Source: Rhodospirillaceae bacterium
GTDB taxonomy: Bacteria > Pseudomonadota > Alphaproteobacteria > UBA8366 > Aestuariispiraceae
DNA length: 64,000 nt
Assembly (NCBI GenBank): GCA_002709955.1
Contig: PAQY01000012.1
Coordinates: forward strand, 319,679-383,678
Direction: 5' to 3'
Shown here: piece after piece, positions 52,251-56,906 of the stretch
Layout of the letters: each line of letters starts with the position of its first letter
Numbering within the stretch: the first letter of the stretch is position 1
Notes under the pieces: generated by a model
What the model was told of the DNA's origin: nothing
Seen by the model: only the letters and a program-made list of their open reading frames with translations
Databases searched by the model: none
Translations under genes and position numbers: made by a program

Positions 52251-54218
52251 TTATTGGCAGCTCAGGCATTCCTCGTAATCCGGCTGGACAGCCTTTGGCA
52301 TTTCGCCCGCATTCACCAGACCCGCAAAGGGTAGGGAGACGGTGCCAGATGCCTTGATACGCACCGTATCGTCGGCCTCTGCCCGCTGGATCGATTTGGA
52401 GCGGCAGTAATACAGGCTTTTCACGCCTTGCTTCCAGGCCCGCATATGCAATTGATGCAGGTCGCGCTTATGGATGTCCGCCGGCAGGAACAGGTTCAAC
52501 GATTGTGCCTGACAGATGTACTGGGACCGATCACCCGCGTGATCCACCAGCCAACGCTGATCAATTTCAAAGGCCGTCTTATAGACGTCTTTCTCCTCAT
52601 CGGTCAGGAAGTCCAGATGCTGGACAGAGCCTTCATTGATGGAGATGGAAGACCAGGTATCGTCGTCATCCTTGCCCTTTTCCGCCAACAGAGCCTTCAA
52701 GTGCCGGTTGCGCACGGTGAAGGAGCCGCTGAGCGTTTTATGGGTAAAGCTGTTCGCCGCAATCGGTTCAATGCCCGGCGACGTGCCGCCACAGATGATG
52801 GAGATCGACGCCGTGGGCGCAATCGCCATCTTGTTGGAAAACCGCTCCATAATGCCAAATTCAGCAGCATCGGGGCAGGCACCGCGTTCTTCTGCCAATT
52901 GCTTGGAGGCTGCATCGGCCTGAATGCGGATATGTTTGAACATGCGGGTGTTCCACACCTTGGCCATGACGCCTTCCATCGGGATTTTCATGGCCTGCAG
53001 GAAGGAATGGAGGCCCATCGTGCCCAGACCGACGGAGCGTTCACGCATTGCGGAATACTTCGCTTTTTCAAATTCGGATCCGGCATTGTTGATGAAATCC
53101 TGCATCACATTGTCCAGGAAACGCATCACGTCTGGGATCAGCATCTCCTCATCCTGCCAATCCAGGAATGTTTCCAGATTGAGGGAAGAGAGGCAGCAGA
53201 CAGCGGTGCGATCCTTGCCATGATGGTCGATGCCGGTCGGCAGGGTGATTTCTGAACACAGATTTGAGGTTTTGACGGTCAATCCTGCCAGCTTTTGTTG
53301 TTCGGGCAGGTTCCGGTTCACGTGATCGCCATAGACGATATAGGGTTCGCCGGTTTCGATGCGTGCTGTCAGAATGCGGATCCAAAGGTCGCGGGCACGC
53401 ACCATGCGGACCATCTTCTGATCCTTAGGCGAAACCAGCTTCCATTCTTCATCATTCTCAACCGCGCGCATGAAGTCGTCGGTGATGACGATTCCGTGGT
53501 GCAGGTTCTGTGCCTTGCGGTTGGGATCCCCACCGGTCGGGCGGCGAATTTCGATGAATTCTTCGACTTCGGGATGCCAGATCGGTAGATAAACGGCCGC
53601 AGAGCCCCGACGCAGGGAGCCCTGGCTGATCGCCAGCGTCAGGGAATCCATGACGCGGATGAAGGGCACGACGCCGGATGTCTTACCATTGCCGCCGACG
53701 GTTTCACCGATAGAGCGCAGATTGCCCCAATAGCTGCCAATGCCACCCCCACGGGCCGCCAGCCAGACATTTTCGTTCCACAGGCTGACAATGCCTTCCA
53801 GGCTGTCATTGCTTTCATTCAGAAAACAGCTGATCGGCAGGCCGCGCTTGGTCCCGCCATTGGACAGGATCGGGGTGGCGGGCATGAACCAAAGCTTGGA
53901 GATATAATCATACAGGCGCTGGGCATGGGCGGAGTCATCCGCATAATGCATCGCGACACGCGCGAACATGTCCTGATAGCTTTCGTCCTGCATCAGATAG
54001 CGATCTTTCAGGGTCGCCTTGCCAAATTCGGTCAGCAACGCATCACGGCTGCGATCCACATGAACCTGGATGCCGCGTTCGTTCTGCTTAAGGTCGCGCA
54101 TCTGGATTCCCAGATCGCCTTCTTCCTGCTCTGGGGCGGGGGCGCGCGTGTTCTGCGCGGCCTTCTTCAGCTTGGCGTCGAGGTCTTCGAACAGGGCATC
54201 ATCTTGTGACGCTTTCAT
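52251..54218 (-). CDS. nrdA: Ribonucleoside-diphosphate reductase, alpha subunit (class I)
   Basis: Makes deoxyribonucleotides. The 655-residue protein has the redox and radical cysteines in GLPISCFLNE, SNLCSEITLP and CCLSSLNLE, the GxGTMGLHSF segment, the PTASISIICGGTSPGIEP loop and a C-terminal CLSCQ shuttle pair. ATG 54218 (KASQDDALFEDLD) is chosen over a longer frame. It lacks a full ATP-cone at the N-terminus, only about 60 unconserved residues. NrdB is not adjacent. DnaA- and NrdR-box-like motifs lie upstream. A terminator follows. Confidence 0.93.
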   Translation of the reverse strand: MKASQDDALFEDLDAKLKKAAQNTRAPAPEQEEGDLGIQMRDLKQNERGIQVHVDRSRDALLTEFGKATLKDRYLMQDESYQDMFARVAMHYADDSAHAQRLYDYISKLWFMPATPILSNGGTKRGLPISCFLNESNDSLEGIVSLWNENVWLAARGGGIGSYWGNLRSIGETVGGNGKTSGVVPFIRVMDSLTLAISQGSLRRGSAAVYLPIWHPEVEEFIEIRRPTGGDPNRKAQNLHHGIVITDDFMRAVENDEEWKLVSPKDQKMVRMVRARDLWIRILTARIETGEPYIVYGDHVNRNLPEQQKLAGLTVKTSNLCSEITLPTGIDHHGKDRTAVCCLSSLNLETFLDWQDEEMLIPDVMRFLDNVMQDFINNAGSEFEKAKYSAMRERSVGLGTMGLHSFLQAMKIPMEGVMAKVWNTRMFKHIRIQADAASKQLAEERGACPDAAEFGIMERFSNKMAIAPTASISIICGGTSPGIEPIAANSFTHKTLSGSFTVRNRHLKALLAEKGKDDDDTWSSISINEGSVQHLDFLTDEEKDVYKTAFEIDQRWLVDHAGDRSQYICQAQSLNLFLPADIHKRDLHQLHMRAWKQGVKSLYYCRSKSIQRAEADDTVRIKASGTVSLPFAGLVNAGEMPKAVQPDYEECLSCQ

Positions 54219-54285: not shown

Positions 54286-54429
54286 TTATCCCCAGCTTGT
54301 CGTCCCCCCAAAGGGTCTGCCTGAACCCGCTAAATAGCATAGGGTTAGGCCAAACTGCAGGACGCTTATGCTCCCGTTATTCACAGGCTGTGGACTGAAT
54401 TCCTGTGGATATTAACGATATTACCCACA
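54286..54429. promoter_or_regulatory. DnaA-box-like cluster upstream of nrdA
   Basis: TTATTCACA (54377-54385) fits the relaxed DnaA consensus TTWTNCACA. TTATCCCCA (54286-54294), TGTGGATAT (54404-54412, other strand) and TTACCCACA (54421-54429) each differ from TTATCCACA at one position. DnaA is known to control nrd genes in several bacteria, so this could tie nucleotide supply to replication start. Motifs are seen; binding is inferred. Confidence 0.5.
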
Positions 54430-54466
54430 AGATATCGACCTTCTTTGCTGCGGGACACAAGATATA
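54426..54466 (-). promoter_or_regulatory. Pair of NrdR-box-like motifs upstream of nrdA
   Basis: CACAAGATAT occurs at 54426-54435 and again at 54456-54465, exactly 30 bp apart, that is about three helical turns. NrdR boxes come in pairs with such spacing and resemble ACACAAGATATTGTGT in this lineage; a complete palindrome of this kind, ACACAATATCTTGTGT, is at 56444-56459. NrdR is the general repressor of ribonucleotide reductase genes. They are about 210-250 nt before the nrdA start. Confidence 0.5.
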
Positions 54467-54559
54467 GCGAACCGAGAGTCCGTGTCAAAGGCAAAAATGA
54501 CAAGTTGGAGACTCAATTTGGCCTCACTTGCAGGTTCAGATTGTGAATGATGAAACGAA

Positions 54560-55651
54560 TCAGGTCGCCTGATCGCGGCGATCAACGTTACCGGTTGCCG
54601 ACAGGACAATGGCAACGGGACGGGTTGCCTCAAAACCGGCGCATACAATCATCGCAATCACCATGAATGGCATCGACAGCACCATGCCAACGATTCCCCA
54701 TATCTGTCCGAAGATCGCCAGGGATAACAGGATGACCAGAGGGCTGAGGTTGAGCGATCGTCCCATCATGCGGGGTTCGATGATATTGCCGACCGCCAAT
54801 TGGACGCTGGCCAGAACCGTGCTGGTGATCACAAAGGGAATCAGCGAGTCGAATTGTACCAATGTCAGGACGGCAGGAAAGGCAACGCCAACCAGTGACC
54901 CGATATAGGGGATGAAATTCAGAATGAAGATCAGAACGGCCCAGAAGCCCGCAAAATCGACGCCAACCAGGGCCATGACGATATAGCTTAGAATCCCTGT
55001 AATGGCGCTGACAAACGTCTTCAGGCCGATATAGGTCTGGATATCCTTCGTCACCCGATCCACCATCGCCCGGGCGCGCTTGCGATCATCGGTCTTTTGA
55101 AACAGAGCGTCGACCTTGCGCCCGAATGTCACCTGTTCCAGCAGGATAAAGGCCACATAGAATAGGACCGTAAGTGTATTGCCTGTGATTGCAGCAAGCG
55201 CGCTGACGGTGCTGCCCAGAGTCTGACCGACATCAATCTGGTCTATCAGGTCGCGAACACTGGGCAATTCCCGCGCCCCGACCAGCGCCAACCCTTTGTC
55301 CAGCAGGGCACGGATATTGGTTTCATACTCTGGCAGTGCAGCGTTTACCGCATTGATGTTGCTGCGGATAAGGTTGGCCAGCAGCACAAAGGTCCCAATA
55401 AAGACAAGAATTGAAATCGTCATACAGAGCCAGTCTGGCAGTCTGCGCCCCTTGATGGAATATTTAGACAGGCGAATGGCCAGGGAATCCAGAAGAATGA
55501 CGATAAAGACGGCGATCACGAATGGCAGAAGAATGTCTTCTGCCACGACCATCAAATAGATGAACAGGGCAACAAGGGCAAAGGCTGCAAACACACTGAC
55601 AACACGAAAATTCGTTCGTATGCCCGGTTGTGATGGTGTCTGGTCAGACAT
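54560..55651 (-). CDS. AI-2E family transporter (PerM-like)
   Basis: A 363-residue integral membrane protein with 7-8 hydrophobic segments: two near the N-terminus (VVSVFAAFALVALFIYLMVV and LPFVIAVFIVILLDSLAI), then TISILVFIGTFVLLANLI, a large cytoplasmic or periplasmic loop (about 105-150) and a C-terminal bundle with NFIPYIGSLVGVAFPAVLTL and NIIEPRMMGRSLNLSPLVIL, which is the family signature. Export of autoinducer 2 was shown for one member only; others act as Na+/H+ antiporters, so the substrate is open. Confidence 0.87.
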   Translation of the reverse strand: MSDQTPSQPGIRTNFRVVSVFAAFALVALFIYLMVVAEDILLPFVIAVFIVILLDSLAIRLSKYSIKGRRLPDWLCMTISILVFIGTFVLLANLIRSNINAVNAALPEYETNIRALLDKGLALVGARELPSVRDLIDQIDVGQTLGSTVSALAAITGNTLTVLFYVAFILLEQVTFGRKVDALFQKTDDRKRARAMVDRVTKDIQTYIGLKTFVSAITGILSYIVMALVGVDFAGFWAVLIFILNFIPYIGSLVGVAFPAVLTLVQFDSLIPFVITSTVLASVQLAVGNIIEPRMMGRSLNLSPLVILLSLAIFGQIWGIVGMVLSMPFMVIAMIVCAGFEATRPVAIVLSATGNVDRRDQAT

Positions 55652-55676
55652 TGCGGCCTGTTCCTAGTGTGGTTCG

Positions 55677-55707
55677 CCGGATGCACGAATCTGGTGCGTG
55701 CATCCGG
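55677..55707 (-). terminator. Hairpin between gcrA and the AI-2E transporter gene
   Basis: CCGGATGCACG (55677-55687) and CGTGCATCCGG (55697-55707) form a perfect 11-bp stem with a 9-nt loop, 16 nt after the gcrA stop and 26 nt before the next start. There is no clear T run, so it may be a transcript-end stabiliser or a factor-dependent terminator. Confidence 0.45.
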
Positions 55708-55722
55708 TGACCCGATAGCATT

Positions 55723-56085
55723 TTATGCGGATGTTGTGGCCGCAGAATTGTTGCTGGATGCGCCATCATCCTTGCGGCGATAGGCCACTCCGCAATGCGC
55801 CTGGCAATAGGGTTTGCCTGGCACCGCGCCTTTGCCACAGAAATGAAACTCGTCTGTGCCGGGATGGCCGATGGGCCACTGGCAGTGACGCTCCACAACA
55901 TTGGGAATCGGCAGCGGGGTGTGGCGTTTCACCTGTTGCGGCCGGGATGACAGGCCCAGACGGTGAGCCTTTCCGATTACCGCATTGCGCGTAACACCGC
56001 CAAGTTTCTCAGCGATTTGGCGTGCGGTGTATCCATTTGTCCACATTCCCTTGAGGAGGGTGACGCGATCATCTGTCCATTCCAT
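55723..56085 (-). CDS. gcrA: GcrA cell cycle regulator
   Basis: GcrA is an alphaproteobacterial factor that binds sigma-70 RNA polymerase and CcrM-methylated GANTC promoters. The N-terminal DNA-binding domain is typical: MEWTDDRVTLLKGMW, then AEKLGGVTRNAVIGKAHRLGL (24-44). The C-terminal sigma-interacting part has CQWPIGHPGTDEFHFCG and PYCQAHCGVAYRR. At 120 residues it is shorter than Caulobacter GcrA (173) because the linker is short. Its 384-nt upstream region is dense in GANTC sites. Confidence 0.93.
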   Translation of the reverse strand: MEWTDDRVTLLKGMWTNGYTARQIAEKLGGVTRNAVIGKAHRLGLSSRPQQVKRHTPLPIPNVVERHCQWPIGHPGTDEFHFCGKGAVPGKPYCQAHCGVAYRRKDDGASSNNSAATTSA

Positions 56086-56469
56086 GGTGCACCTCTTCGT
56101 GTTTTCGCCGGACCTCCCCCCGTAGGGCGTCTCGCCTGGCCGTTGGTCGTGATGCTGGCCGAATTCGGCGTAGCTCTCCCGCGCGCACGGAATTTTCCCC
56201 CGTCCGCTAAACCAATAGATATTGTGGTCTATTTGCTTGCCAGCACAATATACGGCTATTTTTTGAGTCTCAAGGGGAAAAATTGATTCGACTAAGATTC
56301 TCTGCGGGGCGTGGCGATTCTAAGATCAGGTCAAGGCTTCATATGAGTGAAATTCAGTCAAATTTACCCAGAATCACAGACTCATTGATGTTAGAATCAC
56401 AGCGCTTTTTAGAATTTCCCAGCGAATCGGGTCGAAATTAAACACACAATATCTTGTGTTCACCCTTAA
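56086..56469. promoter_or_regulatory. gcrA upstream region with eight GANTC sites
   Basis: GANTC occurs at 56265, 56285, 56296, 56316, 56371, 56379, 56394 and 56424 (first base of each), eight in 164 bp, while about one per 256 bp would be expected by chance. The rest of the 384 nt shows no gene. ACACAATATCTTGTGT, a 16-bp NrdR-box-like near-palindrome, is at 56444-56459. Control of gcrA by CcrM methylation is inferred, in line with the known methylation-dependent action of GcrA. Confidence 0.6.
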
Positions 56470-56748
56470 TCAACCATGGCGGGCAACCTGTCCCAGTGAA
56501 GGCCAGTCTGGTCGTGTGGCGACGTCCTTGCTGCCACAGCCGGAACAGCGAAGCCGTGCGCCCACTTCAGGGACCGGTACGGTCGGGCCAAAGCGTGCGA
56601 CCAGAACAGCGGTTGCCACAACCCCATTGTGTCCGCATCGATTGCACCAACAAAAGATATCAATGGCCTCTTGGGTCAGATCGCCAAGAACGGTTTTGAC
56701 CCGGTGAGAGTCTTGCCTGCGCAGATCATTTTCTTTGATTCGACCCAT
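56470..56748 (-). CDS. Small zinc-ribbon-like protein
   Basis: A 92-residue protein with two cysteine knuckles, CWCNRCGHNG (about 34-40) and LRCSGCGSKDV (about 68-72), probably a zinc ribbon. The N-terminal part is basic and hydrophilic. ATG 56748 is favoured by AGGTGGA 7 nt upstream; an upstream in-frame start 15 codons earlier is less likely. No family name is known to me; similar small proteins are found in Alphaproteobacteria. It precedes the gcrA control region on the same strand. Confidence 0.62.
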   Translation of the reverse strand: MGRIKENDLRRQDSHRVKTVLGDLTQEAIDIFCWCNRCGHNGVVATAVLVARFGPTVPVPEVGARLRCSGCGSKDVATRPDWPSLGQVARHG

Positions 56749-56906
56749 GACACATCCACCTGTTCGATTAAATATCACTTTATGTTCTCTCATTGATCTT
56801 TAATAGCATTAAGAGAAAACAAGAACAAGATAGGAAAATACGAATGTGATGTGTCTGGAGGTCTATTAGGGTCGGTACAATTACCGTTTAAAAATCATGC
56901 TTATCG

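Follow-up and report, generated by a model that had tools for sequence, protein, structure and literature searches.

We analysed a window of 64,000 nucleotides (the whole stretch of DNA under study), which lies in an assembly of 4.23 Mb in 24 contigs. The features at the locus of interest are the gcrA gene, the open reading frame upstream of it and a cluster of GANTC sites between them:

55723–56085, minus strand: gcrA, 120 amino acids (Pfam and NCBIfam scans and a profile search of its own genome)
56470–56793, minus strand, as gcrA: small open reading frame upstream of gcrA
56265–56428, no strand: eight-site GANTC cluster (putative CcrM targets), −343 to −184 from the gcrA start

The gcrA product belongs to PF07750, scoring 125.8 bits against a gathering cut-off of 26.9 in the Pfam scan, and is encoded by the sole PF07750 gene found in the assembly, with both PF07750 matches being parts of one open reading frame. 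Against the NCBIfam equivalog for Caulobacter-type GcrA (NF050816) it scores 113.4 bits, below the cut-off of 280. Only 3 of 387 class genomes reach that cut-off, which indicates that the model is narrow, and we therefore file the protein under the GcrA family and not under that equivalog. The gene is 88–99% identical to gcrA of five genomes of the same genus. A sequence titled as a Mesoflavibacter sp. chromosome (CP051228.1) carries a gcrA 90% identical to that of the Rhodospirillales genus of the window, together with its promoter, and the title is probably wrong.

The small open reading frame at 56470–56793 had no match in Pfam and NCBIfam scans, and the intergenic stretch separating it from gcrA measures 384 bp (56086–56469). 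Inverted motifs in this stretch could point to a structured or small RNA, of which the GANTC sites would be a by-product. An Rfam scan of 55600–56900 with E up to 1 gave no match, so a known RNA family was rejected as the source of the region, and individual GANTC sites turn over between relatives while their number stays similar; both argue against this explanation, which we regard as very improbable. DnaA or CtrA sites were likewise rejected as inputs, with no DnaA box and no full CtrA site found within one mismatch in 56086–56469, whereas the Caulobacter gcrA is described as DnaA-activated (PMC4287350).

A sequence-only reading of this DNA had counted eight GANTC sites, and all eight were found, at 56265, 56285, 56296, 56316, 56371, 56379, 56394 and 56424. 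Its estimate of a density more than ten times that of chance also holds, with 8 sites in 164 bp (∼49 per kb) compared with 1.92 per kb in 2.06 Mb of the genome. That sample is 48.6% of the genome, with the window included and 322 bases counted twice, and is non-random, as contigs C11, C22 and C7 were taken first since earlier matches lay there. The same reading had placed the cluster in front of gcrA, which is correct in that the cluster lies upstream, but it does not immediately adjoin the gene, beginning 180 bp from the start codon.

Such a cluster could also be explained by an AT-rich intergenic stretch with many GANTC by accident, or by a tandem repeat that has degenerated, and the GC fraction is indeed lower in the 450 bp upstream (0.50) than at the start of gcrA (0.59). 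In dinucleotide shuffles of 56086–56469 the mean was 1.81 ± 1.25 sites, and none of 5000 shuffles reached eight. Near-miss pentamers are not enriched (one-mismatch variants of GANTC occur 0–3 times each in the same stretch), the spacing within the cluster is uneven, and the cluster is kept in six genomes. Chance alone, biased composition and near-miss motifs were consequently rejected as explanations, and we consider an origin of this kind extremely improbable. Another palindromic pentamer, AANTT, occurs seven times in 56086–56469. Across the whole window GANTC is depleted (147 observed, 272 expected), as has also been reported for genomes with CcrM (PMC3973325).

Comparable density elsewhere in the genome is rare. 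Only two other spots in the 2.06 Mb contain at least six GANTC per 164 bp, one upstream of ccrM (seven sites) and one in a palindromic repeat (seven sites), compared with the eight upstream of gcrA. In a genus relative (G012), a 400 kb sample that lies outside its gcrA and ccrM promoters reached a maximum of five per 164 bp. The palindromic spot (L113 511–672, on contig C10 of the window genome, G000) has its seven GANTC in CCAGAATCC-type repeats near the contig start and adjoins a primase/helicase-like gene (AAA_25). It was set aside as palindromic repeats, its count of seven being equal to that at ccrM, and judged by eye the repeat may be phage-derived. In L116 (contig C14 of the same genome, first 20 of 21 kb), motifs repeat at 822, 9663 and 18612, which gives that contig the look of tandem units of 8.8–8.9 kb, whether through duplication, as a multicopy element or as an artefact of assembly.

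The gcrA cluster is retained in all five genus relatives, with turnover of single sites, which removes the concern that the sites might be lost in close relatives. Counting over 450 bp ahead of gcrA in each of 14 family genomes gives 8–11 GANTC for all six members of the genus, 7 and 8 for a second genus, and 2–5 for the rest; individual sites are gained and lost between relatives and the total stays similar. Comparing G000 with G009, 32 of 32 fixed GANTC bases are unchanged, compared with 150 of 203 other bases (p = 1.4e-4), and constraint is similarly evident between G000 and G013 (p = 1.7e-4), while it is weak in the other four of six pairwise comparisons (p 0.04–0.09).

Seven of the eight sites have the context YGAKTCK, compared with 719 of 3945 GANTC (18%) in the genome sample (p = 4.5e-5), as do 47 of 97 gcrA-upstream sites over the 14 family genomes. 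This context has been proposed for GcrA activation, and the targets of GcrA in Brevundimonas are reported to lack an extended preference of this kind (PMC7987155). On the gcrA strand the middle base is G or T at distal sites and A or C at proximal ones (KKKKMMMM in the window, and similar across the genus). Seven of the eight sites lie beyond −200, outside the −200 to +100 region scanned in PMC7987155. From GANTC counts over promoters of 500 bp, Brilli and others considered methylation control not to be derivable, and they stated that CcrM controls GcrA in one genome cluster (PMC2877005).

The site nearest to gcrA coincides with what appears to be the core of the gcrA promoter:

56265–56273, minus strand: GACTC that overlaps with the inferred −35 element (gcrA-strand sequence TTGAGACTC), with conservation in four genera
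56245–56252, minus strand: inferred −10 element of gcrA, inside NrdR-type box 1 (see below), from sequence and alignment

The −35 sequence TTGAGACTC (TTGAGAGTC in one genome), with its GANTC beginning 11 bp before box 1, is present in 10 of 14 family genomes, and so is the core TTGAGACTC-N12-TATATTGTG on the gcrA strand, once with GAGTC. Candidates for the −10 element are TATATT (15 bp spacer) and TATTGT (17 bp spacer). The GANTC over the −35 element would thus sit about 27–31 bp upstream of the predicted gcrA start, overlapping or between the −35 and −10 elements, which resembles Caulobacter ctrA P1 with its GANTC at about −28/−29 (PMC4287350). Relative to these predicted elements, gcrA would have the arrangement of a GcrA-activated promoter. 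In Caulobacter, a GANTC located between −35 and −10 is associated with activation at 40–60 min, and 11 of 96 starts have more than one GANTC within 50 bp (PMC4287350). As with the Caulobacter promoters controlled by GcrA and CcrM, the genes for reader and writer are both encoded in the window genome; the window differs in having eight GANTC where the Caulobacter promoters have one or two, and in that the target is gcrA itself.

Of the three outcomes by which the sequence-only reading would have failed, none was observed: the density has only two equals in the half of the genome sampled, a CcrM-type methylase gene is present, albeit scoring below the curated cut-off, and close relatives keep the cluster. 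The interpretation itself is partly supported. The sequence-only reading had offered two roles for the cluster, a methylation-counting switch tied to fork passage and direct feedback. Feedback is the better-supported half: seven of eight sites in YGAKTCK context, one site over the −35 element and a similar cluster at ccrM make GcrA/CcrM feedback at gcrA plausible.

The matching ccrM promoter had escaped that earlier reading, as had the NrdR-type box pair described below. The genome contains one CcrM-type methylase gene, which matches NF050803 over residues 5–355 of 361 (E 4.6e-190) yet scores 630.9 bits, below the curated NCBIfam cut-off of 830. Its neighbour is a ribonuclease HII gene (PF01351). 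The seven GANTC of the ccrM cluster (L087 9618–9765), four of them in YGAKTCK context, extend 22 bp into the gene. From −300 to +60 there are 7–9 GANTC in the genus and 3–7 in other family genomes, one contig ending early. Two GANTC lying two bases apart behind a TTGAC element are found in 13 of 13 aligned family genomes; a third, nearest −27 and 5–8 bases before those two, is present in 12 of 13 and absent from the window genome alone, where one GANTC remains between the inferred −35 and −10 elements. A search for ccrM in 30 genomes left four without a match. In this wider sample, 13 of 26 ccrM loci have at least four GANTC in −300 to +60 (including L259, whose start is badly set), and no more than one is present at any of the seven Aurantimonas and Jiella loci. 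ccrM is a predicted core GcrA target across Alphaproteobacteria, with sites in −200 to +100, and GANTC occur upstream of ccrM in many orders (PMC7987155), with which the family of the window genome agrees.

We then considered whether the array could act as a replication-fork timer, in which the number of hemimethylated sites measures the time since fork passage and sets gcrA expression without NrdR. The array is dense and conserved with partial site turnover, and GcrA is reported to be active on fully or hemimethylated GANTC (PMC8116508), both of which are consistent with such a timer. In G012, assembled as one contig, the GC skew of 20 stretches places the origin at 1.5–1.7 Mb and the terminus at about 3.9–4.1 Mb, with dnaA at 1.49 Mb and rsmG at 1.64 Mb. 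Here ccrM lies at 0.29 Mb (∼58% of the way from origin to terminus) and gcrA at 4.47 Mb (∼78%), along one arm, and replication of both genes apparently falls in the second half. Hemimethylation would therefore be late and brief if CcrM is produced late. A simple timer set by early passage of the fork is not favoured by this, and we regard the timer as unlikely.

A second class of palindrome lies around the gcrA promoter core and upstream of nrdA in the same window:

56243–56258, no strand: NrdR-type box 1 of gcrA (nrdA-trained position weight matrix, PWM)
56212–56227, no strand: NrdR-type box 2 of gcrA, 31 bp start to start from box 1 (15 bp spacer)
56444–56459, no strand: lone NrdR-type palindrome ACACAATATCTTGTGT, at the gcrA-distal edge of the GANTC array
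54425–54470, no strand: NrdR-type pair upstream of nrdA, a training-set member and the top pair in 2.06 Mb (32.2)
52251–54218, minus strand: nrdA, ribonucleotide reductase alpha subunit (NF006577 equivalog, 1019.6 bits, cut-off 620)

Only nrdA boxes went into the PWM, 26 in all, taken from 13 family genomes. These training boxes were first located with a provisional NrdR consensus, which the PWM then replaced, and G013 was omitted because its nrdA pair lies at the edge of the stretch scored (L008 shows a pair there). With the provisional consensus, the best single match over 1.26 Mb was 56444–56459 and the best pair was that upstream of nrdA. ACACAATATCTTGTGT agrees with the provisional consensus at 15 of 16 positions, is the best single box in 2.06 Mb by PWM (20.3), and has a counterpart in every one of the six genus genomes. 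The outer half of gcrA box 1 deviates from the consensus, and no GANTC overlaps the gcrA boxes in the window genome.

Across the 2.06 Mb, the top-scoring PWM pairs are those of nrdA (32.2), gcrA (25.0, second of all pairs), nrdB (22.8) and nrdJ (21.3), with the next at 19.6 and lower. The nrdB pair (L206 11598) ends just upstream of nrdB (L206 10595–11554, minus strand; NF007186, 575 bits, cut-off 237), and the nrdJ pair (L202 3465) is just upstream of nrdJ (NF005736, 2191 bits, cut-off 1737). Both genes were outside the training set and serve as untrained controls; with both confirmed behind the third and fourth pairs, the four best pairs belong to three ribonucleotide reductase genes and gcrA. 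All 14 family genomes carry an nrdR gene (184 bits in G000, cut-off 124.65). By sequence, gcrA has the elements of a candidate NrdR operator: two nrd-like boxes, a spacer within 14–17 bp and nrdR in the genome. NrdR binds box pairs with 15–16 bp spacers and tolerates 14–17 bp, and its operators at reductase genes consist of two palindromic 16 bp boxes (PMC12051234), which the 15 bp spacer at gcrA and the 15–17 bp spacers at ccrM resemble.

Pairs are not confined to the window genome. Among the family genomes, gcrA has a pair in 13 of 14 (scores 12.2–26.9) and ccrM in 13 of 13 (15.3–29.7). The ccrM pair lies upstream of the inferred −35 element; in the window genome it scores 15.9, in the fifteenth row of the 2.06-Mb list, and would be convincing mainly through its conservation. 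Over a wider set of Alphaproteobacteria, pairs scoring at least 10 occur within 300 bp upstream of gcrA at 60 of 87 loci (three draws, with 28 of 38, 24 of 30 and 8 of 19 positive) and upstream of ccrM at 25 of 38, these loci being phylogenetically non-independent. The 38 ccrM loci exclude L259, where the badly set start makes the pair score invalid; L263 holds another part of the gene already represented by L264, and L137, which ends 41 bp upstream of ccrM, was dropped. The floor for a single box within a pair was a score above −2 in the wide-locus, spacing and permutation scans, and above 0 in the earlier scoring of family genomes.

The controls gave far fewer pairs. With 200 column-permuted matrices, the means were 1.5 loci for gcrA and 0.8 for ccrM, and the maxima of 28 and 23 never reached the observed counts. 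Control windows from the same loci scored at least 10 in 4 of 879 cases for gcrA and 2 of 263 for ccrM; the four are one each in L006–L009, where the other top pair lies 1.7–1.9 kb downstream, at the position of nrdA. Negative-control upstream regions scored at least 10 in 4 of 22, all of them upstream of nrdR itself. The nrdR upstream region reaches this score in 4 of 14 family genomes (L177, L179, L181 and L182), although autoregulation of NrdR has, by one account, never been found in Proteobacteria (PMC5343134). Spacing is also concentrated, with 31 bp in 56 of 96 gcrA regions, 32 bp in 14, 29 and 33 bp in 11 each and other distances in 0–10 (for most distances off the peak, 0–6), and at ccrM with 31 bp in 16 of 38, 33 bp in 14 of 38 and other distances in 0–3. 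The GANTC cluster, its conservation, the matching cluster at ccrM and the spacing and distribution of the box pairs are all read directly from the DNA.

These counts bear on another explanation, that the array serves GcrA autoregulation within GcrA/CcrM feedback only, and that the pairs belong to another palindrome-binding factor or are NrdR-like −10 sequences. The prediction of ccrM as a core GcrA target (PMC7987155) would agree with this, as would the overlap of the upstream gcrA box with the inferred −10 element. A −10 element alone, however, would not yield a second box at a fixed spacing. The 31 bp peak instead agrees with the published 15–16 bp NrdR spacers (PMC12051234), a model trained on nrdA alone ranks nrdA, gcrA, nrdB and nrdJ as its four best pairs, and permuted models stay below the observed counts. 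We consider feedback without NrdR rather improbable.

The distribution of pairs has gaps, with 27 of 87 gcrA loci and 13 of 38 ccrM loci lacking a pair of at least 10. In the three genomes that reach the Caulobacter GcrA equivalog cut-off (L265–L267), the gcrA pair is absent or scores 9.5 and 5.0, so Caulobacter itself may lack an NrdR link. Five of six sphingomonad gcrA loci are without a pair and the sixth scores 7.9, and all seven Aurantimonas/Jiella and both SAR11 ccrM loci have none of at least 10. Pairs are present at three of five sphingomonad ccrM loci and at both Pelagibacteraceae gcrA loci, which suggests that some lineages may retain the pair at just one of these genes. Outside the genus, GANTC arrays are often found apart from NrdR-type pairs, and so the two need not act as one switch. 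At ccrM the two motifs adjoin: of the 25 loci with a pair, 17 have a GANTC beginning at position 12 after the start of box 1 and 17 have one beginning a single base before box 2, the window genome having both and the arrangement extending to sphingomonad loci, outside the order of the window genome. Methylated adenines would consequently lie at the inner edges of both ccrM boxes.

Taken together, the gcrA intergenic region is probably a composite two-input promoter, with the ccrM promoter built alike, in which an epigenetic feedback module is gated by the dNTP-sensing repressor NrdR. All of the regulation in this model (methylation, GcrA binding, NrdR binding, the signs of the effects and the physiology) is inferred from sequence. 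As the first input, CcrM would methylate the GANTC array upstream of gcrA. The site over the −35 element lies where GcrA would act with sigma70 RNA polymerase, and the remaining sites would raise local GcrA occupancy, such that, while the DNA is methylated, GcrA and CcrM would each keep up expression of themselves and of the other. Passage of the fork would leave the array hemimethylated and perturb expression of both. As the second input, NrdR would bind the pair over the gcrA −10 region, and at ccrM the pair upstream of −35, with GANTC built into the inner edges of the boxes. When dATP is plentiful, NrdR would bind and repress gcrA along with nrdA, nrdB and nrdJ; as replication drains dNTPs, NrdR would release, and reader, writer and nucleotide supply would rise together. 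The NrdR half has the stronger statistical support and the GANTC half the stronger precedent.

More tentatively, and with somewhat less than even confidence, we propose that in much of Alphaproteobacteria the GcrA/CcrM module (reader, writer or both) may belong to the NrdR regulon and be released as replication consumes dNTPs. Methylation at ccrM could also tune NrdR binding, forming a methylation-gated nucleotide sensor, which is the boldest step of the proposal.

Comparison with known NrdR targets offers both likeness and difference. As at the nrd operators, an nrdR gene is present and a candidate pair lies over the inferred gcrA promoter; unlike them, the predicted targets here are an epigenetic reader and writer, and the ccrM boxes bear CcrM sites on their inner edges (PMC12051234). 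The topA gene of Pseudomonas aeruginosa is a precedent for NrdR acting on a DNA-metabolism gene outside the nrd genes, although it has a single box and is activated (PMC4409342), whereas gcrA and ccrM have box pairs. This activation, and the position of the ccrM pair upstream of the inferred −35 element, make the direction of any NrdR effect at ccrM the least certain.

The literature searched contained no link between NrdR and GcrA, CcrM or GANTC, and an existing database may hold a target prediction for gcrA. The main text of PMC5343134 mentions neither 'gcrA' nor 'methyltransferase'. The parts of the proposed circuit are known, and we did not find their combination described in that literature. 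Coupling between the methylation clock and DNA synthesis in Alphaproteobacteria is commonly attributed to DnaA, CtrA and the passage of the fork. If the model is correct, NrdR pairs from Rhodospirillales to SAR11 (at gcrA) and in Sphingomonadales (at ccrM) would provide a direct metabolic input, with DNA synthesis read via the dNTP level, and the arrangement suggests an epigenetic clock wired to nucleotide supply. In Caulobacter, raised dNTP delays S-phase entry, and deletion of nrdR gives 10% more spreading in soft agar, read as a longer swarmer phase via ribonucleotide reductase (PMC12186491). Candidate operators at gcrA would offer a second route beside that reading, in lineages having them. 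A vague statement about GANTC density is thereby replaced by concrete, mutable elements.

Two further observations concern other NrdR-type pairs in the window genome. Additional 31-bp pairs with scores of 18.4–19.6 occur at L207 13532 (near a flagellar-hook-like gene), L203 10847 and L221 5207, possibly by chance. The nrdA promoter (54377–54470) combines its NrdR-type pair with DnaA-box-like sequences at one mismatch (54377, 54404 and 54421).
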